This document shows positions 10,801 to 61,463 of a stretch of DNA of 64,000 bases, one piece after another. The stretch's first letter is position 1, and every line of letters begins with the position of its first letter. The translations under genes were made by a program, and so were the position numbers. This DNA comes from Physcomitrium patens (Eukaryota; Streptophyta; Bryopsida; Funariales; Funariaceae). The stretch is from positions 708,636 through 772,635 of the forward strand of contig NC_037275.1 in the NCBI RefSeq assembly GCF_000002425.4, given 5' to 3'. A model generated the notes under the pieces. That model was not told the DNA's origin. It saw nothing but the letters and a program-made list of their open reading frames with translations, and searched no databases.

Positions 10801-11617
10801 TATACAAAATCTATTATAGGTGAGAGAACAACTAAACTCTTCTTTGACAACATCTATTGCTATCATGGATTATCAATGGATATTATATTAAACAAAGAAA
10901 TATAATTTTTATCAAGATTTTGGAGAACTCTTTTCAAGATATTGAAGATGGATATAAAGCTATCTCTAGCTTTTTACCTATAAACTGATGGACAGACAAA
11001 ATGAGTAAATCAAGTTTTAGAGCAGTATTTGAGGTGTACCATCATCTATCAACAAGATGATTGAACAACTCTTTTGCCATTGGCAAAGTTTGCTTACAAT
11101 AATTTGATACATTCTTATACTCAAAAAACAAATTTCTTTATAAATTATGGTTATCGTCTACAAATTGATACTTTCGACTTTTCAAAAGTTGGTAATCTTG
11201 TGGCAGATGATATTGCAAATTAATTGTGAAAGCTACATGCAGCAATAAAGGCACAATTAAAGAAAGCTGAAGAATGACAAAAAACCAATGCAAATGTCAA
11301 TCGCAAGGAACAACCTCAATTCCATGTAGGAGATAATGTATGGTTACTTTGTCATAATATTAAAATTATTCATCCTTGTGACAAACGGGATTATTGTAGG
11401 CTTAGACTATTTTCTATTTGTGAACAGATCAATCCAATTGCTTATTGATTATATCTACCGGAGTTTATCAAAATCCATCATGTGTTCCATATATCTTTAC
11501 TTGAGCCATACAAGACAATGGATATACAAAGAAAGAGACAATTGCCACGACTTCCTAAAGAAGTAGACAATAATAAAGAATTTGACGTGGAAGAAGTCTT
11601 AGATTCAAGGCAGTGTC
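7818..11617 (+). pseudogene. Chromovirus C, left piece: gag (partial) to integrase and start of chromodomain (broken)
   Basis: This copy runs parallel to the young element G from the middle of gag onward. Order: Gag C-terminal part to about 8260, retropepsin near 8370-8420, reverse transcriptase about 9060-9620, RNase H about 9640-10,200, integrase about 10,480-11,250, and the integrase tail up to the first residues of the chromodomain. It is heavily decayed with many breaks, mostly of transition type compared with G. The right edge is the insertion point of LTR D. The same chromodomain resumes at 26,857, so the 15 kb between is inserted DNA. The 5' LTR and N-terminal Gag are not in the window. 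Confidence 0.85.
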
Positions 11618-13383
11618 GTATTATGTGGCGTTTGGCTTGAAAATGCATTGGACACTTAGCTGTGGAAGTTAAAAGTGAAATTGCAACAAGTCTTAAGAAC
11701 TCTAATTGATTTGTAAATAAATTATAATTAAAGATTAGAAAATATAATAAAATACTAATTAAATTCAATCAAAATTTAGAAGGAATTATGTAAGTAATAG
11801 AAAGTATTTCTAGAGATCCTTTAAAGAATCATAAAGAAATAACATAGAAATTCAAAAATATACTAAAATAGAAATCTTAATAAAATATTAAAATAGAAAT
11901 CTTAATTAAATTCTAATCAAAATCTAATAAAATTCTAATCAAATCCTAATCAAATTCTAATTAAATTCTAAATAAAACCTAGTCAAATCCTAAACAAACC
12001 TTAACCAAATTTTAGTCAAATTCTAAAAAAATTCTAACCAAATCCTAACCAAATTCTAAAAAAATTCTAAATAAATCCTAATCAAATTCTAAATAAATCT
12101 TGATCAAATCCTAAACAAATCCTAAAAAAATCTTAATCAAATCCTAACCAAATTATAAATAAATCCTAATAAAATCCTAAATAAATTCTAATCAAATCCT
12201 AAACAAATCCTAAACAAATCCTAATCAAATCCTAAATATATCCTAATAAAATCATAAACAAATCTTAAATTAATTCTAATTAAATCCTAAATAATCCTAA
12301 TCAAACTCTAATTGATCCCTAAACATACTCTAATCAAATTCTAAATAATCTCAAATAATTCCTATAGCAATTTTAAACCTCATTAACTAATGAATGAACC
12401 ATTGATTTTAACTAAAATTTTACATACCTCTTAAAAATTAAATTCAAAACAAGCACAAATTTTTTGAAAAAGATCAAACTCACTAAAAAGAAGATCAATC
12501 CTAATATTTGCTCGGATATTGGCTGGCCTCCTTCTCTAATCTAAATGTTGAATTTTCAATGCCAATATCTCATTATCATACTGTTGAATTGATCTTAAAT
12601 TTCTTAAATATGTAGAAAAATAAGTCTACTATCCACATACATAATTTTCACTCTAATCAAATGAATTGATTGCAAGAAATCTTAGAAGCCCCCACTAGGC
12701 CTAAAACTCTATCTCTCGAGATCCTAATCCACTTAAACCTCAATAACCTTTGATCCAGTCTTTTGATCAAGCTGAAACTTATAGCATATATTGAATACAA
12801 AACCTTCAAAATTTCACCTATGGATCTATTGCTTAATTTACAAAATTTTCCGAAAAGTATCTTCCTATTTATTTCACAAATTTTGAGTCACTCAAAACAA
12901 ACTTGGTCTTTGCAGAGCTCTTACAAAGTCAATACAAATCCAAATCACTCCAAATCAATGCCTACCAATACTATATGAAGTCTGCTCTCTAATTTCATTC
13001 TTCAAACTGCCAAAGATCTCCAAAATCATCGTCGGATCTCATTTTTGTACCTTAGGATCTGATTTCAACTCTGGTTCATAATTTACTCTTTTTATGTATT
13101 AATATCTAATTTTTCTTAGTAATTTTTACTAGAACTTATTCTAATCTTCTTCTTAAAGTTACTTATATTGTTTATTTTTTCAATCTACTTTGTTTTGTTT
13201 TATTTATTATCCTATAAAGTAAGTAAAAGTCACTTTTAAAAAAAATTAATATTACTACTAAAAGTTTTACTATCTTCCTATCTTTTATTCATATTTTTCT
13301 ACTTTATTTTTTAACTTGGATCTTCTATAATAAAATCCATATTATCATTTTTTACCATATAGTCATATTACAATACAATAGCA
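11618..13383 (-). repeat. Solo LTR 'D' of an A/F-type element (about 1.77 kb)
   Basis: In element orientation it begins TGCTATTGTATTGTAATATG at 13,383 and ends ...AATAC at about 11,618. Both ends match LTR D' (45,286-47,152). No internal region follows, so it is a solo LTR. It interrupts the chromodomain of element C. Allowing for transitions, the flanks gtgtc (11,613-11,617) and the bases joining at 26,857 are compatible with a duplicated GCGCC target. A degenerate tandem array fills 11,885-12,360. Confidence 0.7.
11885..12360. repeat. Degenerate tandem array of about 11-12 bp units inside LTR D
   Basis: About 40 imperfect copies of units such as AAATCCTAATC and AAATCCTAAAC follow one another. 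The opposite strand reads GATTAGGATTT. The same kind of array sits at the same place in the LTRs at 46,330-46,860 and 50,180-50,740, so it belongs to the LTR family and is not a local microsatellite. Confidence 0.85.
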
Positions 13384-13699: not shown

Positions 13700-14070
13700 T
13701 ATTGCGAGCCAATACTAACGTAAGAAGTTGAAAATTTGTCGCATAGTATTTGTAATATATTCCAATTATTGTTTGCATGGCAAGTAGTTCATTGGTCCTT
13801 GTAACCAATGATAGTGTCGTACGCTTTCGATTTTCGACCAAGCATGAACTTCCATATCTTCATTATAAAAATGCCTTATAAACACTCCTTCGAGAAGATC
13901 ACCTTAGGCAGGTTCTACCTCAAATACAATCACTCGTCACTTATTATTAGATATCCTCCGTTGTCTTTGTAGTATAAGCGGTTCTTCATCTCGAGGTTGT
14001 CTTCGTGAGATACTCGGTTGAGATGATATGACTGGTATGGTATCTATCTCTTGGCTATCTATATCAGACC
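13700..14070 (-). pseudogene. Remnant of the extra ORF3 in element E
   Basis: Between the chromodomain and the 3' LTR the minus strand still encodes short segments matching ORF3 of element G. Examples are RHYHWLQGPMNYL near 13,777-13,818 (G: GHYRWLRGPINYL) and EYITNTMRQIFNFL (G: EYVANTIRRILDFL). It is broken at several points. Its presence here shows that ORF3 predates the split of the E and G subfamilies. Confidence 0.65.
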
Positions 14071-23234: not shown

Positions 23235-26200
23235 ACGTTGTGTGATATCGAGGGCTATAGAATCTCCAATAGTCGTAGTATGTATTTGGTTGAGGAAGTC
23301 AGCATCCAATGGCACTATAGCAAAGCAAAGCCTGAATTATTCCAACTTCAATAATGTTGTACACTGTTGATCAAATGCTGCTTCTTTAGCCTTTGGCACT
23401 AGATACAATCTTCTAAATAATGCATCGGATAGTCTTTGTTGCTTTGTAGGCCGATAAGTAATATCAAAGTCAAATTTGAATAGCAATATATTCCATCAAG
23501 CTTGACGATGATTCAAAACCTAAGGTAACATGTCGTAGTCCAAATTCCTATGATTTGTGTAGACGGTTATCGAATACACAGCTCTTTCGAGAAAGTGACG
23601 CCACTCTTGAAAAGAATCTACTATTATAAGAAGTTTTTTTATTGTGGATCTTATAGTTGATCTCGACAGTAGAAAACTTTTGAGAGTAGAACGCAACTGA
23701 ATGAAGCTTTTTGTCTGCACCTATCTTTGAAAGTACAACTGCCATAGCAAAATCTGAAGCATCAGTCTCCAAATAGAAGGCCTTTGTAAAGTTTGGATGT
23801 ACTAAGATTGGAGCCATAGTAAATACCGTCTTAAGATCTTGAAATACTTTTTCCGCTAGAGGTGTCCATTCAAGTTTGTTTTTACATGTCAATCGAGTGA
23901 GCAAAGCAACAACTTGAGTAAAATTCTTGATGAAGATCCAATAGAAGTTAGCAAAGTCAAGAAAGTATCGTACATCTCTAATCGCCTTTGGAACTTTCTA
24001 TGATACGATTGCTTCCACCTTCTTAGGATCCATCTTCAAGCCTTTCGTAGTTGCAATGAATCCCAAAAATTCCATCTCAATTTGGTGAAACAAGCACTTC
24101 TCCAATTTGGCGTAAAGTCCTCGCTTGCACAGTTTTTCAAGGACCAGACAAACGTGTTTCTCATGCTCTTCTACGTTCTTAGAAAATATCAAATTATCAT
24201 CTAGATAGATAACAACAAAATCGTCAAGGTACTCCCAAAAGATGTCATTCATCATCTGTTGTAAGACCGTCAAAACATTGGTAAGACTAAAAGGCATAAC
24301 ATTATATTCAAAATAGCCATACCTTGTACGAAAAGCTATCTTCTATTTGTCTCCTTCCTTGATTCGCATGAGATTATATGCTCCTCTTAGATCAATCTTT
24401 CTAAAGATCCTTGCATGTCTAAGTTGCTCTAGAAGCCTTGATATCAAGGGTAATGGATAATGATTCTTCTTTATCACCTTGTTGAGACCTCGATAATCCA
24501 CGCACATCCGCAGTGAGCCATCTTTCTTCTTCTTCATAAATAAGATTGGTGCCCCAATTGGCGAATTTGAATGACAATTGAAGTTCTTGGCTAGATTCTT
24601 ATCAATGTACTTCTACAACTCCGCTAACTCCATCTCCGACAAATTGTCGATTGGGCCAAAAGGTGGTTGTATTCTTTTTTGCAAGTCTATGGCTCAATTG
24701 TATGTTTGATGCTCCGATATATTTGCTGTTGAAAACTTCTCTCCGCTAGTTGGAGTCGCATAAATGACAAACTGTATACCTTCTTTGGACGATGTTACAA
24801 ACGCTCTTCCTCCAATAAATAAGGATTTTTTGATTCGAGATCTTCTAATAGGCTTACTCTCAGAATGTTCTATAAGAAATATCATCCTTCGTAATCTCCA
24901 ATCTATGGAAGAGTTATGTATTTCTAACTAAGAAAGATCAAGAATAACAGGGCTTGACGGGGTTCTAATAATATTGAAAATAATATAACTACTATGGTCT
25001 TTAAACGTCACCTCTATAGGTTCTGATTCATGGATGACACAACCAGATAATAAAGGTCGTCCATCTATTACTTCTACGTGAACGGGTTTAGGTTTTCATA
25101 CTGGAAGAATCTTGTAATGCTTAGCAAATTCTTTATCTTAAAAGTAAGCAGATGTTTTTGAATCTAATAATGCTAAGGTTTTTAGTTTTTGAAGGCCAAA
25201 AGATAGAAGAATGGTAAAACAATGGACAAGTTGAGCAGAAAGAGAAGAATTTGATTGTTGTTGTGGTATTGAATCGTCCAATTGTACAGTCCCTATTGTG
25301 GCTGGGCATCTTCATTTTCTTGAACAAACGTACCTCTAGTCTTGATAATGCGTCAATTTTTCTTCTTGGGACAATTTCCAGCTCTATGGCCTTCTTCACT
25401 ACAATACAAGCATACTTCTTCCTCCATACGTCACTTTTTTTCTTCTAAAGTTAGAGATTTAATACGTACCACATCAATTTATATGTCTTCCACCTTTGAA
25501 TGTGAATTCAGGCTGCTTGTTGACATAGTTGGAGCATAGTGAGCCGTAGGTTGTCTTGAGCATTCGTCTTGGCGATGTTGGAACAGGTGATTATCACACT
25601 TCACAACTTGGCTAATGGCTTCGTTGAGCATTTGTGGATTGAGAAGACGTAATAACAAATCCTTCACGTCATCCCTCAAGCTCCAATAAAAATTGATTCA
25701 TCAATGCTTCCTCGTCCCAATTGATGTCCCATGCTAATTGTCTGAAATCTGATGCGTAGACTAATGCAAAACGTGCCCCTTGTTGTAGTGACCACATCTT
25801 TATTGTAGCCCATCATGCCTAATTATGTTCGCCAAACGCCTCCAAAAATTTTTTGAAGTTATTTAAAATTGACGATCCTTTGTCAAACAAAGGAGCAAAC
25901 CATAATAGAGCTTGCCTTGTGAGCAAAGTTCCAACCAGTCCAACACGTGACTCCTCCGTTGGATAGCATTTGGGTTGTAAAGCTATTATCAATCTAATTT
26001 GATTGACAAAACCTCAAAACTTAGAATGTGTACTATCAAACTTATGTAGAAGGCTAATTCAGGACTCCTTTCGTTGTAAACCAATGGTCCTTGTTGAACT
26101 AGAGGCAAAGTTGCTTCTCTTGGTGCAAAAGCTTGAGGCTAGTGAATCCTCAATTATGCCATCTTAGATGCTCTATCATTATGAAGCCTTACAATGATTC

Positions 26201-26583: not shown

Positions 26584-26851
26584 TATCATGAATTTAGAAT
26601 ACTGACTGGAAATCTAAAAAGAAGCTCAAGAAGAATTAGAAAGAATTAGATTAATCAGATGAATAAAAGAACAATACTAGAGAGGTGAGCTAGAGCTCCA
26701 AGAGGTGTGTTGTCAAGACTGAGGATCCCCTCAGTCTTCGCTACTATATATACTACAAGCTAGAAAGCTTCTCAAGTAGCTTCTACAAACTACAAAGCTT
26801 CTCTAGAACCTTCTAGCATCTTCTACAACCTCTTAGTATATGTCCTTGAAA
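26584..26851 (-). repeat. 5' LTR of element E (268 bp)
   Basis: It matches 13,386-13,654. On the minus strand a TATATATA box lies at 26,752-26,745 and the presumed transcript start at 26,720, 32 bases on. A 10-bp inverted repeat (26,715-26,724 and 26,729-26,738) straddles the U3/R boundary. Confidence 0.85.
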
Positions 26852-26856
26852 ACAAC

Positions 26857-27000
26857 ACCAAAATAGGTTAGAATATCTCATACATCGGTGTGGATATGAC
26901 ATTTATGAATGCACATGGGAGCTATTTAGAAATCTAGCAAATGCATCAACCAAAGTTAAAGCTTTTCATCAACATCTATCAAAACTAAGATAAAGAGTCA
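26857..27000 (+). pseudogene. Chromovirus C, right piece: remainder of chromodomain
   Basis: The sequence resumes element C at the point where LTR D interrupted it. It encodes decayed counterparts of YLVHWRGYDI and the TWEPSRNLANAS region of element G, and ends in the same basic tail. Confidence 0.8.
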
Positions 27001-27091
27001 AGAAATTCTTTCCTATAAAGCAAAGCAAGCCCAATGGAGATTTTATTCTATCTTGTATCATTATTTCTTTGATTTTTTTAATACTTGGAAG

Positions 27092-27513
27092 ATAGAGAAC
27101 GAACAACCAGAAGATTCAATTCAAGAGTTATCATTTGCTGAGCTACCAAACAAAATATTGTGACTATCACAACCTTCAAGATGGCAAAATCAAGATGAAG
27201 ACCCTCAAGAACAACATATTTTTCTTCGAATAGATGCAAGATACAATGCATTTGGTACCACGATTTTGGAAGGAACTCCTGATGTTTAGTGATACTTTTA
27301 GAAGTAAGAACCACTCTTGATGGAATTACTAATGTTTTGTTTGAAGGAAGTAATGAAGGCCTCAATAATGATCAAATATCACGGTAGTCTTCTTGCCCTG
27401 GTATGGGATATTATCGATGATTGAAGGGACCTATCAACTACCTTCAAAGGAAACGAAGATCAAAGTTTGTGGCAAATACAGTTCAGCACATCTTGGACTT
27501 CATCAACATGTAA
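27092..27513 (+). pseudogene. Remnant of ORF3 in chromovirus C (broken)
   Basis: It is collinear with ORF3 of element G (60,457-60,879) over its full length, with the same spacing after the chromodomain and before the polypurine tract. Several segments still read as in G, for instance around the GMGYYR-W and INYL region near 27,400-27,440. It is broken in more than one place. Confidence 0.75.
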
Positions 27514-27540
27514 TCACAGCTCCTCGTAGAACTCATCTCT

Positions 27541-27550
27541 AAAAGAGGAA
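27541..27550 (+). other. Polypurine tract of chromovirus C
   Basis: AAAAGAGGAA followed by four bases precedes the LTR start, at the same position as the purine tract of element G. Confidence 0.6.
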
Positions 27551-27554
27551 ATAA

Positions 27555-28210
27555 TGTCATAGACATACATATTTATCTTGATAATTATCTACATAATAGG
27601 AATAGGTAGAACTAAGTCAAAATAGATAAATATGATAATATCTTATAAAAAGCTTTCTTAGAAGCATCATAGACATTGCTTTGCCTTTATACATGTCTAT
27701 AGGTGATTGATAGGTTGAAAACTTAATCAACAAGGAGGCCACATGTCGACATGTTGACTACTTGTAATACAAGTTGGACATATGGCACATACCTAGGAAA
27801 CTTGCCTTACAAATTAAACAAGTGTCTTCCAAGTTGGATGGGTATTAGAGGTCTTATAGCATGTTGACTACTTGTAGTACAAGTTGGACATATGGCACAT
27901 ACCTAGGAAACTTGTCTTACAAATTAAACAAGTGTCTTCCAAGTTGGATGGCTATTAGAGGTCTTATAGCATGTTGCCACATATTTCTTAGTTAAGTAGT
28001 ATATATAGAGGCAAGAGTGAGGCCTTCCTTACTCTTGTCAATTCTTTTTTTGGTTTTTAGTCTACTTTCAAGAGTCTCACGTTTTCTAATCTTTGGCAAT
28101 AGCCATTTTAATTCTTCCTTGAAAATACATACTTTCTTCTATTTTGTCATTTTTTTTTTGACATAGATTCTATGACTTTATGCATCTTCTTCTAGTTTGT
28201 GTCCTTGACA
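27555..28210 (+). repeat. 3' LTR of chromovirus C (656 bp)
   Basis: It begins TGTCATAGACATACAT and ends GTCCTTGACA, matching the LTR of G. It has a TATATATA box at 28,000-28,007 and ACTCTTGTCAA at 28,031-28,041, the same transcript-start sequence and spacing as in G. It is longer than the G LTR, largely because of a 110-bp tandem duplication. Confidence 0.85.
27751..27970 (+). repeat. 110-bp tandem duplication in the LTR of chromovirus C
   Basis: Two adjacent copies (27,751-27,860 and 27,861-27,970), each starting ATGTTGACTACTTGTA, differ at only a few bases. The LTR of G has a single counterpart, so the duplication is specific to this copy or its subgroup and arose after most of its divergence. 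Confidence 0.9.
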
Positions 28211-28219
28211 CTTTTAGAA

Positions 28220-28553
28220 TAAATTAACTATGTGGTATCCATATAGAAAACTTACCTTATAAATTAAGATACATATTGTGCAAAGAAAACACATTATGGA
28301 GGTTCTATAGAATGTCACTACGTAGCTCCTAAGTAAATAGTATATATAGAGGCAAGAGTGAAGCTTTCTTTACTCTTATTAATTCCTTTCTTGATTCTAC
28401 TCTAGTTTCAAGAAGTCTCTAGTTTTTTTGTTTTTTGGCGATAGCCATTCTAATTTCTTTTTAATATACATACTTCTTTATTTCTTTTTTATTATACTTC
28501 TTTGAAAAAGTCTCAATTTTTTATTTCTTTCCATCAGGTTCTTGTCCTTGACA
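28220..28553 (+). repeat. Partial chromovirus LTR 'H'
   Basis: From AACTATGTGGTATCCATA to GTTCTTGTCCTTGACA it aligns with the 3' two thirds of the G-type LTR, including a TATATATA box near 28,350 and the U3/R palindrome. Its 5' part is missing and it follows the C LTR by about 10 bases. It may be an older LTR that C inserted beside or into. Confidence 0.75.
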
Positions 28554-34899: not shown

Positions 34900-37050
34900 A
34901 AATTGTTTTTGATTTATAATTTTTTTTAATAAAATTTGAAGTAGGTCTAGCACAATGAGATGAAAGCTAAAACAATGAAATTAATTTAATTTATATTATA
35001 TAGTAATAAAGAGCACATGTAGAAAATATTTAATAATAATAAAAAGTAAAAAAAAAGAAATAAATTGAAAATTTATTTATACATTTTTGTAATATTGTTT
35101 GTTTCTTTGAAAATATTTGATTTAGGATGAACAAATTAAATAATGTAAACAACTTATTCTTCAAAATTCTATTTATTAAGACTAAAATCTATGCAAATTG
35201 ATACAACTCAATTTAAACAATTAACACTAAAAAAATTCAAAAACATTTAAAATAAATTTTGTTTATATTATAGAAAATAAGATCATATAGTATTAGGTTG
35301 TTCCGTCAAATTAGATGGATTCAAGTAAATGATCACGTATTCAAATATAAAAAAGTTTGTAAAGACAAACAACTATTTGGAATATGTTCCTTATAATTGG
35401 ATAATTTTAGATTACAACCATCAAATACATGCTTTATGCTACTGCTAAGTTCCATACTTAATTTTAAACTCCTTTTATTTGTTAAAATTTTAAGGTATGG
35501 ATTTTTAACTTAAATACAGTTTTTTTTATCAACCACCTATTCCAAAGAAATTATAATTATTTATGTCAATAGAAATATTGAAGATCTTCTAATTTCAAAT
35601 TCTTATAACTATATTATTATGATAGTGGATTGACTAATCAAAATGGTATATTTTGTACCTTATATAAAAATCATAAAGAAATTATTGATTTTTTTTTCAT
35701 AATATCTATTAATATCATATAAAGTAATGAAAATACATCTAAAAGATGCTAAAGAATAATATAAAGCTAATGTGGACATTCTTAAAAAACAACATCTTAT
35801 ATTTAAATTTGGTAATAAGATAAGATTACTTTTTTATAATATTAATTCTAGTTGACTTTGTTAAAAGTTAGCTTATCAAAGACTTGATCCATTTATTATT
35901 TAAAAATAAATAAATAAAGTTGTATACTTATTGTAATTACCAAATTCAATTAAGGTCCATCTTATAATCTACACATTTCTAATTTAGCCTCATACTACAA
36001 TCAATATATTGGAAAGAAAATAAATACCACCACTTTTTATTGATAGAAATAATTGCTAAGAATTTGAAGTTGAAGAAGTCATGGATTTAAGGAAGTGTTA
36101 ATATAATTAAAATTTCTTGTATGTTAATACAAACATAATATTAGTAAAAACATATGGAAGCCATCTACAAATCTTGTAAATGTATAAGAGCTTGTTATTT
36201 TTGTTTTTCATTGACGTGATCTATAAAAAAGAAAAGACAAACTATTGACAACATAATGATGTAAATGAAGGAGCAATAAGTTCAAAAATCAACTTATAGA
36301 ACTTCATTGCAATATTGAAAATTGATAGCAATTAAATTTATCTTAGAACTTGTTATTTGCAAAATTGTCTAATGATTCACTTTTATTGTCTTAACTTTGA
36401 TAACATTAAAATTTTGTTTAATACACTTAAGAGAGATATGTTTTTATTTGAAAAATAAAAATATTGAATGTGTTTAGTACCACAATCTCAGAAGAGACTC
36501 TTAATATTTAGTAATGCTACTAAAAGTAGGTGCTATACATAATAGAATGCAAAATATCTTCATTGAAGATAGTAATAAAGATATTAATAATGATCAAATA
36601 ATATGATGGTCTTCTCACCTTATTATGGGATATTATTGATGATTGAAAGAACCTATCAACCATTTATTTATAGAACATATATCATATTTTATTGCTAATA
36701 TGATTTGACTAATGTTGGACTTTATTAATTTATAAAAAAATTTGATTCTTTTTTTGTAAAACTTAGAAGAGGAGATAATTTAATGGATGCTTAAATTACT
36801 TAAATATATAGACATAATAAGAAGTATATAGATACATGTTGAAAAAAAAAATGTCTTCTTTAAAAAGCTTTGATTTTTTTATTTTTTTATTTTTTTTATA
36901 TGTAGATTAGATATTTAGGCTTTGGTAGATATATTACATGACTGTTAAAACTTATCCTATAAATTTTCTATTTTTAGAAACTTATATTAGAAGCAACCTA
37001 CATCTTAATGCTTAAGCTAAAAGTCTTGTAATTTTTAAAAAGCTATAATA
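34900..37050 (+). mobile_element. Element I: decayed 3' part of a chromovirus
   Basis: From about 35,580 the sequence tracks element G through the integrase core (35,600-35,680), integrase C-terminal part (35,740-36,000), the end of the chromodomain linker (36,060-36,100), ORF3 (36,466-36,745) and the beginning of the LTR (from about 36,780). Large stretches are missing and it is broken throughout. Before 35,580 the relation is too weak to assign. This is the most decayed chromovirus copy in the window. Confidence 0.6.
36466..36745 (+). pseudogene. Remnant of ORF3 in element I
   Basis: The stretch from the counterpart of the FGIRYHD-type segment to the counterpart of the NTIRRILDFL end of ORF3 in G can be followed base by base near 36,470-36,730. 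It confirms that ORF3 was already present in this old copy. Confidence 0.6.
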
Positions 37051-39222: not shown

Positions 39223-41876
39223 ATTAATCTCCCTCTACTAATGCGGAACATCTTTATTATGCTCTAGATGGTATCTCTAAATTATTTCTTAGCAATGACT
39301 GAAGTTATATGTAGATTCCTACTTTGCATTGTAGATGGAATAAGCTTTTCAAAGGACTTTGTATTAAAATTGTGGACATCTACTACTATGGCAAAAGTAG
39401 CGATGCTCCATTTATTTGGATATGGAAGGTCTTAGATATGACAAGTTGTATGTCTAATAGCTTGAACAAGACCTATCAAAAACTTTCCATTGAGTATGGA
39501 TCTTAATTTAAAATGATGATATGAAATAACCTACAATAACAAAAGAAAATATCAAAGAAGAATTGTAGAAGTATTGAGGCATTAGTATTTAAGCGCACTG
39601 CGACAAAGTGAAATTCTTCTAAGAGTCAATCCACAAAGACAGCAACCGCAATGTGATTGTAAGGCATTTGTAATAAATACATAATGAGATCTATAATCAC
39701 TTACTCCCATCGTGTTGTAAGTAGTGAAATATGCTGCAATAATCTAAGAGATGTTGTATTGTGTATTTTATTACATTGGCAGAACTTACAAGAGTGCACA
39801 AAAGTTCAAACATTATAATCCAAATCTGTCCAAAATCATGTTCTTGAAATTCATTCTAGAATCTTTTCATGCCATAGATGTCTAAATATTGAGATGTCAT
39901 GTCTTTCTTGAAGTATACACGTCTAGAGTATAATATTGTTAAGTATATGGATTTACTTCTTAAAATATAGTAAGCCATCATTAAAACTATAATGTTAATA
40001 CTATATATTGTCTATCTTTAGTTGATCGCTAACCATCTTAAAATAAGCATCTCAATGAATAGCTTCTTTTTATTCTATCCCTTTGGTTAGATTTGAAATA
40101 ATACTATTAATGGTATTGACTTTTACCTTGTCTTATGATTCGGCTTTGAAGTCCAGTCTTTGCAATAAGTTGTCTAATATAGTATATTGTCATCTTTGTA
40201 CAAACTTAAGCTAAATGAAAAAAAATTGTAATTATTCTTTTCAACAATGATGTCATGATTTCATATTTTTTAAATACAAATCATATAATAGGAATTAATG
40301 GTCAGTTTGAACAATCACTGACTTCTCCAATAAATAAGGTTGCCACACTTTTGTGGCATATTTAATTGCTCTCAATTATGTGTAGAATAATTGTGCTTTG
40401 TCTTTTTAAGCTTGAATGATTCATATGCTACGGATTGAAGGCTTCTACCAAAGTCTTATTGAAGGACCAGTCAAACATCAAAGTTAAAAGCATCAATGTC
40501 AAGTATACATAGAAGGTTGAGATCATATCGTTGTAATATTAGAGCAATAATACGTACTTCTTTCAACCTATCAAAGGTGCTTTGTTGTTTTAGTTCTCAT
40601 TCAAATTAGGTACTTTTTTCTAATAGGCTTCCTAATGAGACAACAATGTGTACAAATTTCCAAAAAAAATGATAATAATATTAAGCAAGGCTGAAAAAAG
40701 AGTGGACTTTAGAAGCATCCTTGAAGGTTGGCCAATCTTCCACTGCTTTTATCTTATTTTGTTCTATGTGCATGCCTTCAAAGGACACCACATATTCTAA
40801 AAAGGTCACTTCTAACTTCCAAAGTTCATACTTTGATTGTTTGCAATAAAAACAACTATCTTACAATTAATGCAATACTTCTTATAGATATTGCTCATGC
40901 TCCTTAAAGATTTTATTATACACTAGGATATTATTGATGAAGATAATTATATACTTATTCAAAAGATCCCAAAATAATTTGTTCATGTGATACATGAAAG
41001 ATGCTGAAGCATTAGTGAGGCCAAAAGATAAAACAAGCCATTCAAATTGCCCATAGTGCATACAAAATATTTTCTTTTTTATATCTTTTTTTATAATTGG
41101 TATTTACCAATAGTCATTCCAAAGCTTCAATTTGCTAAAGTTGGTTGCACTATGAAGTTGGTCAAGAAGATTGTCCACGTGTAGAAGTGAATATGCATTC
41201 TTAATAGTCTACTTATTAAAGTTTTGATAGTCAATGCAAAGCCAAAGTCCATCATCCTTCTTGATTGCAAAGAGTGTAGGTGCTTCTTATGGTGATGTGC
41301 TTTCTTGAATAAGGTCCTTTTCCAAGAGTTCATTCAATGTTTTTTATAGCTCTTCAAGTTAATTTGGTGCTAGGTAATAAATTGGTTGACGTACGGATTT
41401 GGCTTCAAGAAATAGTTCTCTTTGAAAGGGAGTACTTTGATCAAGAGACATGCCACTAAACAAGTCAATTAAAAATACATCTTGATATTTTCATATGAGT
41501 TGCTCTACCTGTTCTACTCCTTCAATTGTCTTTTCTACCATTAACGTAAGATTTATAACCACTATATATATCGATTGCTTATGTTAGATTTGCTTCTTCA
41601 TAAAGGTCAACTTCACAAGTAAGTTTTTTGTTGTAGATTATTTTTCTTCTTTACTTAATATAGAGGTGCAAAGTATCATTTTTCGTCTACCATCTTTAAA
41701 GGAGATTTTCCTTACTAGCTAATCAACTTGTTTATTTTCCACCTTTAGCCATGGCATACCAAAGATAACATCATATCTTAGCTTTGTTATCTTGAACTTT
41801 TTTCTTAAGATATAAGTGTCAGTCAACTTCAAGGTTTCTTTTTCACATGTTTCATTCAATATGTTTTCTTGATCAT

Positions 41877-54000: not shown

Positions 54001-55107
54001 GGAAATGATATAGGCACTTATCTACAAATACCAAATAATTGGTATAAAAGATCTACAAAGTAATTACATATCTATGATTATAATCATAAAATGATGGATG
54101 TATCTTTAAAAAGTGAAAAATCCAAATTCCTCAAACTAAAAGTTCAATTGATAGAAGAAGAATTAATATGATACAAAATCTTAATTATGGAGTATAAGAA
54201 TATAATTGCTTGGTCTTACAAAGGCTCTAAGGGCATACTTCCAGAAATAGTCCAATATAGAATCCTCTTCTTTCTCCATTCAATTCTTGTGAGATATAAA
54301 AAAAAAAGAATGAATCTAAATCTTCAATTAATTATTAAAGAAAAATTTTAAAAAAATTCTCTAGGATATATTTATTAAAATCATAGAAATTATGGATTAA
54401 ATTTCATCTATGGTTTTTATTTTAAAAAAAGAAAAAAATAGCCTTTGATAAAAGACATAAAATTTGAATTCTTAGACCTAGTATTTGATACTCCTACATG
54501 ATTCTAAGAAATTAGATTTCATAAGAAAATTCAATGCCATTTGATTAGGTCCTTACTTGATTAAAGAAGTCTTTCCAAATAATTTAGTTTGGATGCAAAT
54601 GCTCAATAAAACAGATTTTTCTACCAAAACTTTTGGGAATAGATATAAAGAATATAAAATATGATTTTTATCACATATAAGGTTAAAAAACTCATTCTTA
54701 TGTTCATCCTTATCTAATTCCTTAAAATAACAAAATTATCAAAATTAGATGAAATTTAAGAAGTTAAATATTGGAGTTCAAGATAAGCAATATAATTATT
54801 CATTAGATCTTTCCTTCTTTCAATTTAGTCTCCTTCACCATGCAATTATGGAAATTTTAATTAAAAAAAAATATACCTTGATTAGATTTTTATGATTGTT
54901 GAATCAAAAAAAAAAAATGATGTATATTAAGTTTTGCTAAGGTAGGTTATATTTAACCATCTAAGGATTATAGAAATATTGGCCAAGTGAGAGGTTTTGA
55001 TTTGAGTGTTTCAAGTTTGAAACCGGTTATAAAAATTTAAGCTATTCTAATTACTTAGTGTTACTATAAGAAAGACCAATATTACACATTTAATAGATAT
55101 GTAGGCC
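51012..55107 (+). mobile_element. Element L: decayed plant-type Ty3 element (gag, protease, integrase end)
   Basis: It has a different lineage from the other elements. A Gag-like region lies about 51,140-51,420 (DDPFVHIERFIE). A retropepsin-like region lies about 53,165-53,400 (HTIVDGNSGLNVI). A stretch resembling the region before reverse transcriptase in plant Tat-type elements lies about 54,190-54,270 (EYKNIIAWSYKGSKGI). An integrase C-terminal tail lies about 54,510-54,660 (AIWLGPYLIKEVFPNNLV). No LTR or reverse transcriptase core is recognisable. It is broken throughout. Two longer open stretches (52,445-52,927 and 53,791-54,063) lie within it and are probably just parts of it. Its left side abuts the LTR of F, and G is inserted beyond its right side. 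Confidence 0.6.
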
Positions 55108-55112
55108 TTATG
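55108..55112 (+). other. Target site duplication of element G, left copy (CCTTA)
   Basis: The five bases CCTTA precede the LTR and recur exactly at 61,459-61,463. Confidence 0.9.
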
Positions 55113-55648
55113 TCACGGACATACATATAATTACCTATATGAATAGATAAAAGTATGTAAAAGTAGATAAAAGTAGGTTAATTGTGTAATATCTTCTAGA
55201 GAAGCTTCTTAGAAGCTTCATAGACGCTGCTTTGACTTTATAGGAGTCTATAGTTGACTTTTAGGCTAGAAACTTGGTCAACAAGTTAGCCATGTGCCAC
55301 ACATGTTGGAAGCTTAAAGAACAAGCTAACTACGTGGTCCATCCATAGAAAACTTGCCTTGTAAGCAAAGGCATGTGGCCTAGAAAGTCAACATATATTG
55401 GAGGTCTTATAGAACATCGCCATGTGGCTTCTAGTTAGATAGTATATATAGAGGCAAGAGTGAAGCCCTCTTCACTCTTGTCAACTCCTTTCTTGCTTCT
55501 AGTCTAGTTTCAAGGGTCTCTAGTTTTCTTGTATTTTGGTAATAGCCATTCTAATTTCTTTTTTAATATACATATTTCTATTTTGTCCTATTTCTTTGGG
55601 AAAAGTCTCACTTACTCTTTAGCTTTCATCGAGTTCTTGTCCTTGACA
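55113..55648 (+). repeat. 5' LTR of element G (536 bp)
   Basis: It begins TGTCACGGACATACATATAA and ends GTTCTTGTCCTTGACA. It holds a TATATATA box at 55,443-55,450 and a presumed transcript start at 55,474 (31 bases on). A perfect 11-bp palindrome lies at the U3/R boundary (55,455-55,465 and 55,470-55,480). Confidence 0.95.
55443..55484 (+). promoter_or_regulatory. LTR promoter of element G: TATA box and presumed transcript start
   Basis: TATATATA at 55,443-55,450 is followed 31 bases later by ACTCTTGTCAA at 55,474-55,484. The start is inferred from the exact 11-nt complementarity to the primer site, which begins at this A and does not extend upstream of it. C has the same arrangement. Confidence 0.65.
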
Positions 55649-55650
55649 GA

Positions 55651-55661
55651 TTGACAAGAGT
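55651..55661 (+). other. Self-primer-binding site of element G (11 nt)
   Basis: TTGACAAGAGT lies 2 bases past the 5' LTR and is the exact reverse complement of ACTCTTGTCAA at the presumed RNA 5' end. Tf1 and sushi-type elements prime cDNA in this way, with the RNA 5' end folding back on the primer site. No tRNA-like TGG is found here. Confidence 0.8.
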
Positions 55662-55860: not shown

Positions 55861-56868
55861 ATGGCAGAGCTTGTTGAAATGAAGAGTGCAATGGCACAGA
55901 TGCAAGAACAATTGAGGGAGTTAATGCTTGCGATGCATCAACTCAATTTACCACCACAAGGAGCAACAAGAATGGTAGGAAGTGAAGATATAGAGATGAT
56001 TGGGGCTGCTTCAACATCTGCACCAAACCATGTCCCTTCTCCCAGAATGGAACACCCTTCGAGTATTAGAGAACCGAGAGTGGCCTTACCCGAGAAGTTT
56101 GATGGTACCAGATCCAAGTTTCGAGGATTCATCAATCAGGTCCAATTAGTGATTGAACTTCAATCCCAGAGCTATCCAACTCCAGGGTCACAAGTTAGAT
56201 TCATTAGTACACTTCTTTCAGGTTCAGCATTGTCATGGTTTTCATCTTTTCTTGAACGACGAGATCCAATATTGGATAATCTGGAGGCTTTTTTGGCGGA
56301 GTTTCGATCCATGTTTGGAGAACATGATGCAATTCGTGTTGCAACCAACAAGATCCGTATTTTGCGACAAGGCAATCGATCAGTAACATTATATGCTTCG
56401 CAATTTCGACAACTTGCAACTGATATCAAGTGGGATGATGCCGCACTTGTGAGTCAATTTCTCTACGGATTACAATATGAGGTAAAGAAATTGATGCTTA
56501 ATTTACCTGATCCTCAAACATTGAGTCAAGCAATTGACTTTGCTGTGAAGTGCGACAATCGACTTTTTGAATTTCGATCCGAGAGTCGCACAAGTAGGCC
56601 TCAACGTTACTACAATTCAATGGCAACACCGACGTCTCCTCAACACATACCTTCAGAAGTAGAGGATATGCAAATTGATGCGGTACGTTTCAAACCTCTT
56701 ACTGAGCAAGAAAAGTCTCGTCGTCGACAAGAAGGATTGTGCTTATATTGTGGAGAACCTAAGCACACTGCTCAACATTGTCCAAAGAAGCGACGTAACT
56801 ACAAAATGAGGAGTACGGCTATCAAAGAAGACAGTATGTCAGAAAACGAGTACGTCCAGCTACAATAG
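55861..56868 (+). CDS. Element G gag (335 aa)
   Basis: The open frame encodes the structural protein of the virus-like particle. It has an N-terminal helical region rich in Met and Gln (residues about 1-40), then a retrotransposon-Gag fold. Residues about 80-200 contain LPEKFDGTRSKFRGF, the W-rich ALSWFSSFLERRDP and YASQFRQLATDIKW. A single CCHC zinc knuckle lies near residues 296-309 (CLYCGEPKHTAQHC), followed by a basic stretch. Length is typical of chromoviral Gag. It is open from the ATG at 55,861. The pol frame follows almost at once in a different frame, an arrangement for which Ty3-group elements use programmed frameshifting. Confidence 0.9.
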   Translation: MAELVEMKSAMAQMQEQLRELMLAMHQLNLPPQGATRMVGSEDIEMIGAASTSAPNHVPSPRMEHPSSIREPRVALPEKFDGTRSKFRGFINQVQLVIELQSQSYPTPGSQVRFISTLLSGSALSWFSSFLERRDPILDNLEAFLAEFRSMFGEHDAIRVATNKIRILRQGNRSVTLYASQFRQLATDIKWDDAALVSQFLYGLQYEVKKLMLNLPDPQTLSQAIDFAVKCDNRLFEFRSESRTSRPQRYYNSMATPTSPQHIPSEVEDMQIDAVRFKPLTEQEKSRRRQEGLCLYCGEPKHTAQHCPKKRRNYKMRSTAIKEDSMSENEYVQLQ

Positions 56869-56873
56869 GGACC

Positions 56874-59800
56874 GTGCGGCTGGAATCTTGTACAACTTCT
56901 AATGAAGGTCCTATCCTCTCCTCAGAACCATCTCCTTGTTTTATAATAGATGTGCGTTTAGGACCTAATAATTACAAAGCCTCTGCCTTGATAGATTCAG
57001 GAGCCTCAGCTTGTTTCTTAGATGAAGAATTTGCTACATGTCATAGAATATCATTAATACAAAAAACTAAACCTGTACACGTAGAAGTCATAGATGGTCG
57101 TCCGTTGTCTTCTGGAGATGTAACTCACGAAACACTTCCTGTAGATGTAGTAATAAATGGTCATAGTAGTTGCATAATTTTTAATATAATTAGGTCTCCC
57201 TCTAATCCAGTAATTTTAGGCTTATCATGGTTAGAAAAGTATAATCCTCGAATAGATTGGATTTCTCGTAAACTTGATTTTCCTCGGAGCATTAGTAATA
57301 GTTCTATTAATCAAGTAAAAAACCATGAGTCTAGTATAGTAAAACCCGCACTTATAGGTGCAAAAGCATTTATACACGCAGCAAAAGAAGGATCAACTTT
57401 TGCTATTTATGCTGCACCTATTTCTGAAAGCGTAAAGACTTCAAGTGGCATTCCAAGTCAATATCAGGATTATCAAGACGTTTTTGAGAAAAAGAATACA
57501 GATATTCTTCCTGAGCATCGCCCATACGATTGTTCAATCGATCTCAAGGAAGGAACTCAGCCACCATTTGGACCAATTTACAGTTTATCACAAGATGAGT
57601 TGGCTAAACTCAAGACATATATTGACGAGAATTTAGCGAAGAATTTCATACGCCATTCAAAATCTCCAGCAAGAGCTCCAATTTTATTTGTAAAGAAAAA
57701 AGATGGATCTTTACGAATGTGTGTTGACTATCGAGGACTCAACAAGATCACAATCAAGAACAGGTATCCATTACCTTTGATATCAGGACTCCTTGACCAG
57801 TTAAATCAAGCTAAGATCTATACAAAAATAGATCTAAGAGGAGCATATAATCTAGTACGGATCAAAGAAGGAGATGAATGGAAGACTGTGTTTCGAACCA
57901 GGTACGGACACTTTGAATACAATGTCATGCCTTTTGGACTAACGAATGCACCAGCTACTTTTCAACATCTCATGAATGATGTATTTCGTGAATTCTTAGA
58001 CAATTTTGTCGTCTGCTACCTAGACGATATCCTGATTTATTCTAAGAATGTTGAAGAACATGAAATACATGTTCGTCAAGTATTACAAAAACTTAGAGAT
58101 GCAGGATTGTACGCCAAGATAGAAAAGTGTGTATTTCACACTACTCAAGTTGACTTTTTAGGATACATCATTTCAAATGATGGTCTTATGATGGATTCTA
58201 AGAAAGTCCAAACAATCATGGATTGGAAGATTCCAAAGACTGTAAGAGATGTCCAATGTTTCTTGGGATTTGCCAATTACTATCGGATCTTCATCAAAGA
58301 CTTCTCACGAGTTGCAGCTCCACTTACACGCTTGACTAGTAAAGATAAATTCCAATGGAATCAAGAAGCGGAAGCAGCATTTGAAGCCTTGAAGACATCG
58401 TTTGTCTCTGCACCAGTCTTATATCGTGTTGATTTTTCCAAGGTATTTTTTATGGAAACAGACGCATCGGATTTTGCCTTGGGTGCAGTTTTATCACAAA
58501 TGGGAACAGATGACAAACTTCATCCGATAGCTTTTTATTCAAGAAAATTCTCAGCAGCCGAGATCAATTATGAGATCCACGATAAAGAACTTCTTGCAAT
58601 CGTGGATTCCTTTCAAGAATAGCGTCATTATCTAGAAGGTGCTTCTAGTCCAGTCACTGTGTATACAGATCACAAGAACCTCGAGTATTTCATGTCAGCA
58701 CGCGTGTTGAATCGTCGTCAAGCTCGTTTGAGAATGTCTTTGTCAAGATTCGACTTCATTATCACTTATCGGCCAAGAAAACAACAAGGTTTGTCCGGTG
58801 CCCTGTCTAGACGTTCTTATTTTGCACCAAAAGAAGGAGATGCAGCTTTTGAGCAACAAAGAACGGTCCTCTTGAAACCGGAGCAATTTCATCTCCGAGC
58901 AGTGAAATCAACACTGACTGTTGATTCAACTTTTCTCAAGCAAATCCAGTCCAGTATGTCCTCTGACCCTCTTGTTCATGATATCGAGAATAATTCTTCC
59001 AAGTCTCATGATTCTTCTAAGTTCGAGTTCAAGAATAATCTATTATATTTTGAAGGACGCCTATATGTTCCAGAAGGAAAAGCACGTTTGCGTGTTCTTC
59101 AAGCACGTCATGACTTTCCAGCAGCAGGTCACTTTGGATATAATAAGACTCTGGAACTCATATCAAGAGATTTTTGGTGGCCACAAATGTGGAAGTCAGT
59201 CAAAGACTTTGTACAATCATGTGATATTTGTTCAAGATCAAAAATTCCTCGACATCGACCTTACGGACTTCTTCAGCCATTACCTATACCAGAACAACCA
59301 TGGTCTTCTGTTTCTATGGATTTCATCACAGATCTTCCAAACTCAAGATCTTATGATTCTATATTTGTGATAGTAGATCGTTTCACCAAGATGGCACATT
59401 TTATGCCATGTACAAAATCTATCACAGGTGAAGAAACAGCTAAGCTTTTCATTGATAATATCTATCGCTATCATGGATTACCTAAAGATATCATATCGGA
59501 TAGGGGAACTCAATTTGTGTCGAGATTCTGGAGGACTCTTTTCAAGATTTTAAAAGTGGACATAAAGCTATCTTCAGCTTTCCATCCTCAAACTGATGGA
59601 CAAACAGAGCGCGTAAACCAAGTCTTGGAACAGTATTTAAGGTGTACCATCAACTACCAACAAGATGATTGGACAATCCTTCTGCCATTGGCAGAGTTTG
59701 CTTATAATAATACGGTACATTCCTCCACGCAACAAACACCTTTCTTTGCCAATTATGGCTATCATCCACGACTTGATACTTTTGATTTTTCAAAAGTTGA

Positions 59801-60362
59801 TAATCCTGCAGCAAAAGATATGGCAAATCGGTTGTCAGAGTTACATGCAATAATGAAGGCGCAGTTGAAGAAAGCTCAAGAACGACAAAAGATAAATGCA
59901 GATGTATATCGTAAAGAGCAACCACAACTCAACGTGGGTGATAAGGTATGGCTACTTCGTCGCAATATCAAGACCACTCGACCTTGTGACAAATTGGACT
60001 ATCGTAGGCTTGGCTCCTTTTCTGTTTCTGAACAGATCAACCCAGTTGCATATCGGTTACATCTACCAAAGTCAATGAAGATCCATCCTGTATTCCACGT
60101 GTCTCTTCTTGAACCATATAAGACAGTGGATATACAAGGAAGAAGACAAATGCCACCGCCTCCTATAGAAGTAGATAATAATGAAGAATTTGAGGTGGAA
60201 GAGATATTAGACTCAAGGCGGCGCCGAAATAAGCTGGAATATCTTGTTCATTGGCGCGGATATGATATTAGTGAGCGCACATGGGAGCCATCTAGGAATC
60301 TAGCAAATGCATCAGCTAAAGTCAAAGTTTTTCATCAACAACATCCATCAAAACCAAGATGA
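56874..60362 (+). pseudogene. Element G pol region: protease, reverse transcriptase, RNase H, integrase, chromodomain (about one break)
   Basis: A retropepsin active site (LIDSGASACFLD) lies near 56,980-57,020. Reverse transcriptase begins near 57,660 with [17 protein letters not shown] and has the catalytic YLDD at 58,017-58,028. RNase H follows with FFMETDASDFALGAVLS near 58,445. The integrase zinc-binding domain is near 59,110-59,240 (GHFGYNK, CDICSRSK). The DDE core has SMDFITDLP near 59,310, ISDRGTQFVSRFW near 59,490 and TDGQTERVNQVLEQYL near 59,595. The chromodomain at about 60,190-60,340 contains EVEEILDSRRRR, YLVHWRGYD and TWEPSRNLANAS. The domain set and order define a chromovirus. 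The region is almost entirely open, with about one apparent break, and is treated as a fossil. Confidence 0.9.
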
Positions 60363-60456
60363 AAACCTCTCTTATAAAAGAGACAAGATTGAGGCAAGAT
60401 AACATTCAATTTCCTATCCTTGTTTGTAACTTCTTTGCATTTGTGACGCTAATTAG

Positions 60457-60879
60457 ATGGAGAGCCAACAACCAGCGGATTCAACTCAAGAACCTTCGTT
60501 TGCTGACTTACCGGATGAGACATTACAATTGTCACAACCTTCAAGACGACGCAACCGAGATGAAGACCCTCAAGAACGACATGTTCTTCCTCGAATAGAT
60601 GGTGAGATACAACGCATTTGGTATCACGACCTTGGAAGAGATTCTCGATGTTTGGTGATATTATTGGAGATAGAAACGACTCCTGATGGTGTTTCAAATG
60701 TATTATTTGAAGGAAGTTATGAAGGCCTCAACAGTGATCAAATAACAGGGTGGTCTTCTCGCCCTGGAATGGGACACTATCGATGGCTAAGAGGACCCAT
60801 CAACTATCTTCGAAGAGAACAAAGATCAGAGTATGTAGCAAATACAATTCGCCGCATATTAGATTTTCTCAATATATAA
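60457..60879 (+). CDS. ORF3 of element G: unrecognised 140-aa protein between chromodomain and 3' LTR
   Basis: It is open from an ATG 94 bases after the pol stop and ends 41 bases before the 3' LTR. The N-terminal 30 residues are polar and acidic and end in a basic patch (PSRRRNRDED). The rest alternates charged and hydrophobic residues as a small folded domain would, with LVILLEIETTPDG, NVLFEGSYEGLN and a C-terminal part containing GHYRWLRGPINYLRRE and NTIRRILDFL. No signal peptide, membrane segment, zinc motif or catalytic box is visible, and I do not recognise a family. Recognisable remnants occupy the same place in C, E and I, so it is a regular part of this chromovirus lineage and not a chance open frame. 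How it is translated (own RNA, reinitiation) is not visible. Confidence 0.8.
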   Translation: MESQQPADSTQEPSFADLPDETLQLSQPSRRRNRDEDPQERHVLPRIDGEIQRIWYHDLGRDSRCLVILLEIETTPDGVSNVLFEGSYEGLNSDQITGWSSRPGMGHYRWLRGPINYLRREQRSEYVANTIRRILDFLNI

Positions 60880-60906: not shown

Positions 60907-60917
60907 AGAAGGGGGGG
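60907..60917 (+). other. Polypurine tract of element G
   Basis: AGAAGGGGGGG ends 3 bases before the 3' LTR, the expected plus-strand primer. Confidence 0.8.
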
Positions 60918-60920
60918 TAA

Positions 60921-61458
60921 TGTCACGGACATACATATAATTACCTATATGAATAGATAAAAGTATGTAAAAGTAGATAAAAGTAGGTTAATTGTGTAAT
61001 ATCTTCTAGAGAAGCTTCTTAGAAGCTTCATAGACGCTGCTTTGACTTTATAGGAGTCTATAGTTGACTTTTAGGCTAGAAACTTGGTCAACAAGTTAGC
61101 CATGTGCCACACATATTGGAAGCTTAAAGAACAAGCTAACTATGTGGTCCATCCATAGAAAACTTGCCTTGCAAGCAAAGGCATGTGGCCTAGAAAGTCA
61201 ACATATATTGGACGTCTTATAGAACATCGCCATGTGGCTTCTAGTTAGATAGTATATATAGAGGCAAGAGTGAAGCCCTCTTCACTCTTGTCAACTCCTT
61301 TCTTGCTTCTAGTCTAGTTTCAAGGGTCTCTAGTTTTCTTGTATTTTGGCAATAGCCATTCTAATTTCTTTTTTAATATACATATTTCTATTTTGTCCTA
61401 TTTCTTTGGGAAAAGTCTCACTTACTCTTTAGCTTTCATCGAGTTCTTGTCCTTGACA
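60921..61458 (+). repeat. 3' LTR of element G (538 bp)
   Basis: It is nearly identical to 55,113-55,648, with about five substitutions and one extra AT. TATA box, presumed start and palindrome are all preserved. It is followed by the CCTTA target duplicate. Confidence 0.95.
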
Positions 61459-61463
61459 CCTTA

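Follow-up and report, generated by a model that had tools for sequence, protein, structure and literature searches.

Chromoviruses are, to our knowledge, generally described with gag and pol genes only. The named carriers of additional sense open reading frames (ORFs) downstream of pol are non-chromovirus Ty3 or Ty1/copia elements. Such frames form a well-known class, aORF-3S, defined as a sense additional ORF between pol and the 3' LTR (PMC7264820). As presented in the accounts PMC7264820 and PMC6317226, the frames of Athila and Bagy2 and the eORF-3'F of SIRE resemble the gene described below in position, orientation, possession of their own frame and retention across copies. Some aORF-3S products are envelope-like with transmembrane segments, whereas the product considered here is a short soluble orphan borne by a chromovirus. 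A lineage-wide additional protein with a suggested regulatory role is also encoded by the antisense aORFs of Retand and Grande elements (TRP28 proteins, PMC11963269). These are like our gene in being orphans as to function but differ in their antisense orientation, their protein family and their non-chromovirus carriers.

Among described elements, those of the Tcn1 clade of moss and club-moss (PMC2864245, PMC6317226, PMC3350952) are closely similar to ours and share its post-integrase chromodomain, its self-priming (reported for Tcn1 elements in PMC6317226) and a non-seed plant host. SM-Tcn1 of Selaginella is presented in PMC2864245 with two frames, gag and pol only, where our element has three; by the numbers given there, 5704 - 2x440 - 969 - 3714 = 141 nt are left over, too little for the third gene. 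Another Selaginella chromovirus, SM1-Galahad, carries a pair of short frames, of 316 and 309 bp, past its polyprotein (PMC3350952). This likeness is one of description only, and one of those frames is the chromodomain itself, unlike in our element. The legend to Fig. 3 of Novikova et al. 2010 (PMC2864245) lists an 'add. ORF ... unknown function' among Gypsy elements surveyed with the Tcn1 clade; compared by that legend, it resembles our gene as an unexplained extra frame. In Physcomitrium patens itself the most abundant element is RLG1, a recently active element with a chromodomain whose copies are concentrated in heterochromatic islands (PMC7466625). The term 'ORF' does not occur in that text and no extra frame is named there, whereas our element, probably of the same family, has a third gene.

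The searchable text of the review PMC7264820 has no mention of moss, Physcomitr-, Tcn1 or chromovir-, and a 2019 survey counted extra frames only if they had at least 250 codons (PMC6317226). In the openly accessible main texts that we searched, no description of the frame was found. Here we analyse a window of P. patens DNA, 64,000 nucleotides in full length, and homologous copies across the genome, and show that purifying selection keeps this frame between subfamilies.

Results

The carrier element

Element G, which carries the frame, belongs to the Ty3-type LTR retrotransposons and lies on the forward strand of the window. Its 5' LTR (55111-55648; 538 bp, TG...CA, exact ends taken from the sequence) and 3' LTR (60921-61458, by LTR comparison) show 5 differences (99.07% identity), and a 5-bp TSD, CCTTA, flanks the element (left 55106-55110, right 61459-61463). 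The gag gene (55861-56868, 335 aa) carries Retrotrans_gag PF03732; its match to the zinc knuckle PF14787 is weak (E 0.23, below the cut-off). The pol gene (56874-60362) encodes protease, RT, RNase H, integrase and chromodomain, with the Pfam order rve, SH3_Tf2-1, Chromo PF00385. The chromodomain lies at the end of pol (60189-60338, E 5.6e-15, residues 511-560 of the frame starting at 58659). In this copy pol has one in-frame TAG (58620-58622, in the RNase H part), despite the 99% identity of the LTRs and the open third frame.

Self-priming elements have been recognised by a stretch of at least 10 nt that begins 0-5 nt past the 5' LTR and is complementary to the LTR, as set out in PMC6317226. 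G has a putative self-primer site of 11 nt at 55651-55661 (+), offset by 2 nt from the 5' LTR, which pairs with LTR position 364 (55474-55484). A TATA-like run, TATATATA, starts at 55443, and the complement at 55474 follows 31 nt farther on; the stretch 55474-55484 is probably the 5' end of the G transcript. Upstream of the 3' LTR, a purine run at 60907-60917 (+) is the probable polypurine tract. G thus combines two features of the Tcn1 / Tf1-Sushi type, a chromodomain after the integrase and the self-priming signature, and on this domain order and signature we regard it as a putative Tcn1-like chromovirus. Its type and abundance suggest that G is probably RLG1 of P. patens.

The third frame and its remnants

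Between the chromodomain and the 3' LTR of G, the first-pass annotation had noted a complete frame of 140 codons, and this frame is indeed present, from ATG to TAA at 60457-60879 (+). It begins 94 nt past the pol stop and ends 41 nt short of the 3' LTR. The frame differs from that of pol, and an in-frame TAG stands immediately 5' of its ATG, so in G the gene could start only at its own ATG, without fusion to pol. The 94-nt spacer between the two genes (60363-60456) contains no ATG and ends in AG directly before the start codon, a possible splice acceptor. As a separate sense frame between pol and the 3' LTR, found in many copies among those best scored, the third gene belongs to the known class aORF-3S; this particular frame is apparently undescribed.

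Remnants of the frame had been claimed for three further elements of the window, C, I and E. A tblastn search with the G protein and the E-type protein of locus L087 recovered all three, with the ends of C and I now placed at 27510 and 36732. The C remnant (27092-27510, +, E 3e-47) contains four stops and one frame break, and the I remnant (36463-36732, +, E 3e-17) six stops. In the E remnant (13712-14062, -) ATA replaces the start codon and stops lie in frame. This remnant is of a 117-codon class and not a truncated G frame; it was found at E 2e-12 with the G query and at E 6e-44 with the L087 query. E-type proteins are 38-44% identical to that of G, and E was rightly assigned to another subfamily. 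That the remnants sit at the same place holds for C, where chromodomain, frame and G-like LTR follow each other, and for E, where a chromodomain precedes the frame. It does not hold to the same extent for I, which is preceded by an integrase-tail piece only and for which no G-like LTR was found.

The pol of C (8269-11619, +) lies about 15 kb upstream of a segment (26850-28553, +) that holds its chromodomain (at 26850), the third-frame remnant and the G-like LTR. It is 66-68% identical to the pol of G as far as the chromodomain, and C looks like a single Tcn1-like element whose two parts have been driven about 15 kb apart by nested insertions. Differences of C and I from G are mainly transitions, most frequently G-to-A and C-to-T changes (49/96 in C, 45/96 in I), as expected of methylated, decaying copies. 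Further Ty3 pol pieces occur at 23244-25242 (-) and 39407-41769 (-), with 50-56% and 28-32% identity to the pol of G; tblastn with the G and E-type proteins gave no significant third-frame homologue at either.

Copies across the genome

We searched 470 Mb of the genome in 101 contigs. In a DNA search for G-type copies, the 40 scored (the best 40 of 6407 loose candidates) were all at 99-100% identity. The frame was open in every one of the 28 loci examined out of these 40, with an exact LTR start at most 57 nt away in 26 of them. Among the best 150 of 20609 candidates from the G protein search, 147 lacked a stop and 3 had one TGA, a stop-free share that is biased because only the best-scored copies are in the sample.

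E-type homologues are spread over many contigs. In the E family a recognisable homologue was present at 20 of 20 loci, with stops in most. Closed frames were found in L078 and the second L074 copy (117 codons each), in L064 (127, including the same 117) and in L061 (106). When L078 served as the query, 35 of the best 150 scored copies had no stops by hand count; 20 of these were examined, and 19 were closed frames of 115-117 codons starting with M(D/N)SQ. The frame of L098 is complete with its stop lost.

The start M[E/D/N]SQ is common to G and the E-types; the 38-44% protein identity given above comes from 21 sequences. In all five elements checked with their flanks (G, L078, L099, L100 and L101), the frame comes after integrase and chromodomain, in that order. 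The AG before the ATG of G is present in none of four E-type copies, and an extra ATG lies upstream of the gene in three of four E-type spacers (L078, L099, L101). Of the four E-type pol tails, L078, L099 and L101 contain stops and L100 does not; with the stop in the pol of G, this means that the copies examined are not intact elements. The third gene thus has its own start codon and sits at the same position in no fewer than two diverged families.

At two loci, copies lie close together. In L074 a pair of E-type copies of the third frame face opposite ways, at 708-1061 (+) and 1566-1868 (-), and in L060 an E-type copy lies close to a G-type remnant. Both arrangements represent nested or adjacent insertions of related elements.

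Selection on the frame

Selection was estimated by pairwise codon maximum likelihood (our own script, F3x4) in 15 pairs chosen out of 231. Between diverged E-type subfamilies, omega of the gene was 0.08-0.26 in six chosen pairs (p 4e-6 to 1.7e-14): 0.079 for L087-L094 (p 1.7e-14), 0.114 for L088-L094, 0.129 for L078-L094, 0.164 for L078-L088, 0.182 for L078-L087 and 0.257 for L079-L088 (p 3.9e-6). The closest subfamily pair, L087-L088, gave 0.359 (p 0.017). Omega of the pol tail (integrase/chromodomain) was 0.146 for L087-L094, 0.181 for L088-L094, 0.333 for L078-L094, 0.524 for L078-L088, 0.397 for L078-L087 and 0.374 for L087-L088, and so never below that of the gene in these six E-type pairs; the pol-tail values may be inflated by decay, in view of the stops in three of the four tails. 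For G against four E-types, omega = 1 was rejected in every case (p 3.2e-9 or better), and the estimates themselves (0.02-0.10) are unusable because of saturation, one fit having given an absurd branch length.

Counts of changes agree in kind. Third codon positions vary most (5/10/40 in L087-L094), and in the more diverged E-type pairs their changes outnumber those at first or second positions by a factor of about 1.8 to 8. By Nei-Gojobori, L078 and the second L074 copy differ with dN 0.18 and dS 0.86. Twenty-five residues are invariant among 10 sequences. In a neutral simulation, a 117-codon frame stayed open in 4.9% of cases at distance 0.2 and in 0.9% at 0.4. Purifying selection therefore keeps the third gene between E-type subfamilies, and the suggestion of a genuine gene is borne out by omega values well below 1.

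Between G and the E-types, protein identity is 38-44% for the third gene against 59-68% for the pol tail. In G-L078, first- and second-position changes number 51 and 39 of 114 codons in the gene, against 123 and 87 of 418 in the pol tail. Across the spacer that separates pol from the gene, G and the E-types are 38-49% identical.

The same comparison of synonymous with non-synonymous change had been proposed with neutral patterns among young copies as its refuter, and such patterns do occur. Four of the 15 pairs, all near ones, gave omega of 0.67, 0.98, 0.99 and 1.03, indistinguishable from 1; three E copies had Nei-Gojobori dN/dS of about 0.57-0.92, and young G copies differ by mixed synonymous and non-synonymous changes, too few for showing selection. 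Neutrality of near copies is nevertheless uninformative, because single insertions decay neutrally. With near copies neutral and subfamilies constrained, it appears that individual insertions drift and that the lineages still transposing are filtered for the protein. Since natural selection has kept the frame, the third gene probably does a job for the element.

The encoded protein

The third-gene proteins are of 115-140 aa and 13.6-16.4 kDa. A variable N-terminal arm (about residues 1-47) is followed by a more conserved core (about 48-140) with the motif HYRWLxGPxNxL, in which Tyr108, Trp110, Leu111 and Gly113 are invariant in 10 sequences. In the alignment, 13 residues of G (DGEIQRIWYHDLG) and part of its arm have no counterpart in the E-types.

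Profile searches and structure prediction, both proposed at the outset, yielded no match to a known domain and models of low confidence only. No match to Pfam was obtained at E<=10 for four of four third-gene proteins, nor any to NCBIfam. A PHROG match (E 0.087 over 18 residues) was taken as chance, as were the PDB sequence matches: a BAR-domain protein (E 0.41), two others (0.99-1.0), WNK2 (0.93 in one search, 0.6 in another) and a bacteriophytochrome (1.4). Viral and prokaryotic contigs were scanned with the protein, and viral ones also with the integrase tail; no relative was confirmed in any of these scans. Two AlphaFold models, built from window sequences only, the first with an alignment in which one E piece was visibly misaligned, place three strands before a C-terminal helix at low confidence (pLDDT 51 and 53, pTM 0.29-0.39). 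The frame had been called unrecognised. This stands in that we found no Pfam, NCBIfam or credible PHROG or PDB relative and no description in the texts searched; it does not stand for the class of such frames, as aORF-3S is well known.

Discussion

We consider it probable that a lineage of Tcn1-like chromoviruses in this moss possesses a true third gene in this frame and that the gene supplies a soluble accessory protein for the element's own cycle. Conservation in the chromovirus lineage, as first proposed, is supported by its presence in two diverged families, if not more, of the genome analysed; it does not extend to SM-Tcn1, which by the available description (PMC2864245) has no room for the gene. 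The third gene may thus be a gain of the moss lineage, a loss in Selaginella, or older.

In this model, translation would begin at the gene's own ATG, on an RNA shortened by splicing or in some other way. The product would be a soluble intracellular protein of 13.6-16.4 kDa, in which a compact core is joined to a variable arm, rich in Arg in places; to judge from the low-confidence models, the core may comprise three strands, the conserved Tyr-x-Trp-Leu-x-Gly and a C-terminal helix. It would serve the cycle of the element itself and not act as an envelope. For its likeliest single role we tentatively propose that of a nuclear accessory factor, protecting or regulating the expression or integration of the element in heterochromatin.

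Ranked next, and rather unlikely, is a helper in RNA binding or packaging, such as a nucleocapsid chaperone or export factor. The protein is small and soluble, and its arm has runs of arginine (RRRRR in three, RRRR in one and RRR in one of five E-types, RRR in G), which would suit such a helper. The arm does not keep a constant net charge, however, with -6 in G and +1 to +4 in the five E-types, which disfavours a constant nucleic-acid-binding arm, and the gag of G already has the weak zinc-knuckle match (PF14787, E 0.23, below the cut-off).

A chromodomain consists of a three-stranded sheet plus a C-terminal helix. Both low-confidence models of the third-gene protein show the same succession of strand, strand, strand and C-terminal helix, and the protein might accordingly be a second chromo- or chromoshadow-like domain steering integration to heterochromatin. 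If G is RLG1, the concentration of its copies in heterochromatic islands (PMC7466625) would fit. We regard this reading as improbable: it depends on models of low confidence, none of the four proteins matched Pfam at E<=10, and the PDB profile matches include no chromo protein. A copy of G's own chromodomain was rejected by profile comparison (hhalign probability 0.3%).

We give a similarly low probability to a host gene fragment that was captured long ago and is now a passenger. Retroelements are known to capture host genes (PMC7264820), and the viral and prokaryotic scans returned no relatives. Nonetheless, a passenger would not hold omega near 0.1 across subfamilies, and recent capture is excluded since the gene is present in families saturated at synonymous sites. 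The third gene may ultimately derive from a host gene.

An envelope-like protein as in Athila or Bagy2 would occupy just this place, in sense between pol and the 3' LTR (PMC7264820), and the candidate splice acceptor of G ends at the ATG. We reject it as very improbable, because none of six proteins has a transmembrane-level segment (maximum 19-residue Kyte-Doolittle 0.77-1.17) and each has only 115-140 residues with 0-1 cysteine. Still less credible is a chance or relic frame, open merely through the youth of its copies. The near-neutral close pairs (omega 0.67-1.03 in four; dN/dS about 0.57-0.92 in three E copies) and the mixed differences among G copies would agree with it, but it is rejected by omega of 0.08-0.26 between subfamilies in six pairs, and by the start, order and 25 invariant residues that the G and E families have in common. 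Least credible of all is DNA or RNA kept as a cis-acting signal. The stretch does border on the polypurine tract and the LTR, and over the 60 nt 3' of the gene, with the purine tract and LTR start, G and the E-types show 55-73% identity. Against this reading stands the excess of third-position changes within the gene, about 1.8 to 8 times those at first or second positions in the more diverged E-type pairs.

As a more speculative extension of the third-gene reading, the protein might represent an undescribed accessory family of moss Tcn1-type chromoviruses, unrelated to env, that aids their success in heterochromatin, for instance by anti-silencing or integration targeting, and constitutes a third required gene.

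That purifying selection keeps a short orphan gene in a family that probably dominates among the elements of a model moss points to overlooked machinery of replication or host interaction. The third gene offers a handle on the function of additional ORFs in plant retrotransposons, and long ORF cut-offs in surveys may have hidden similar genes.
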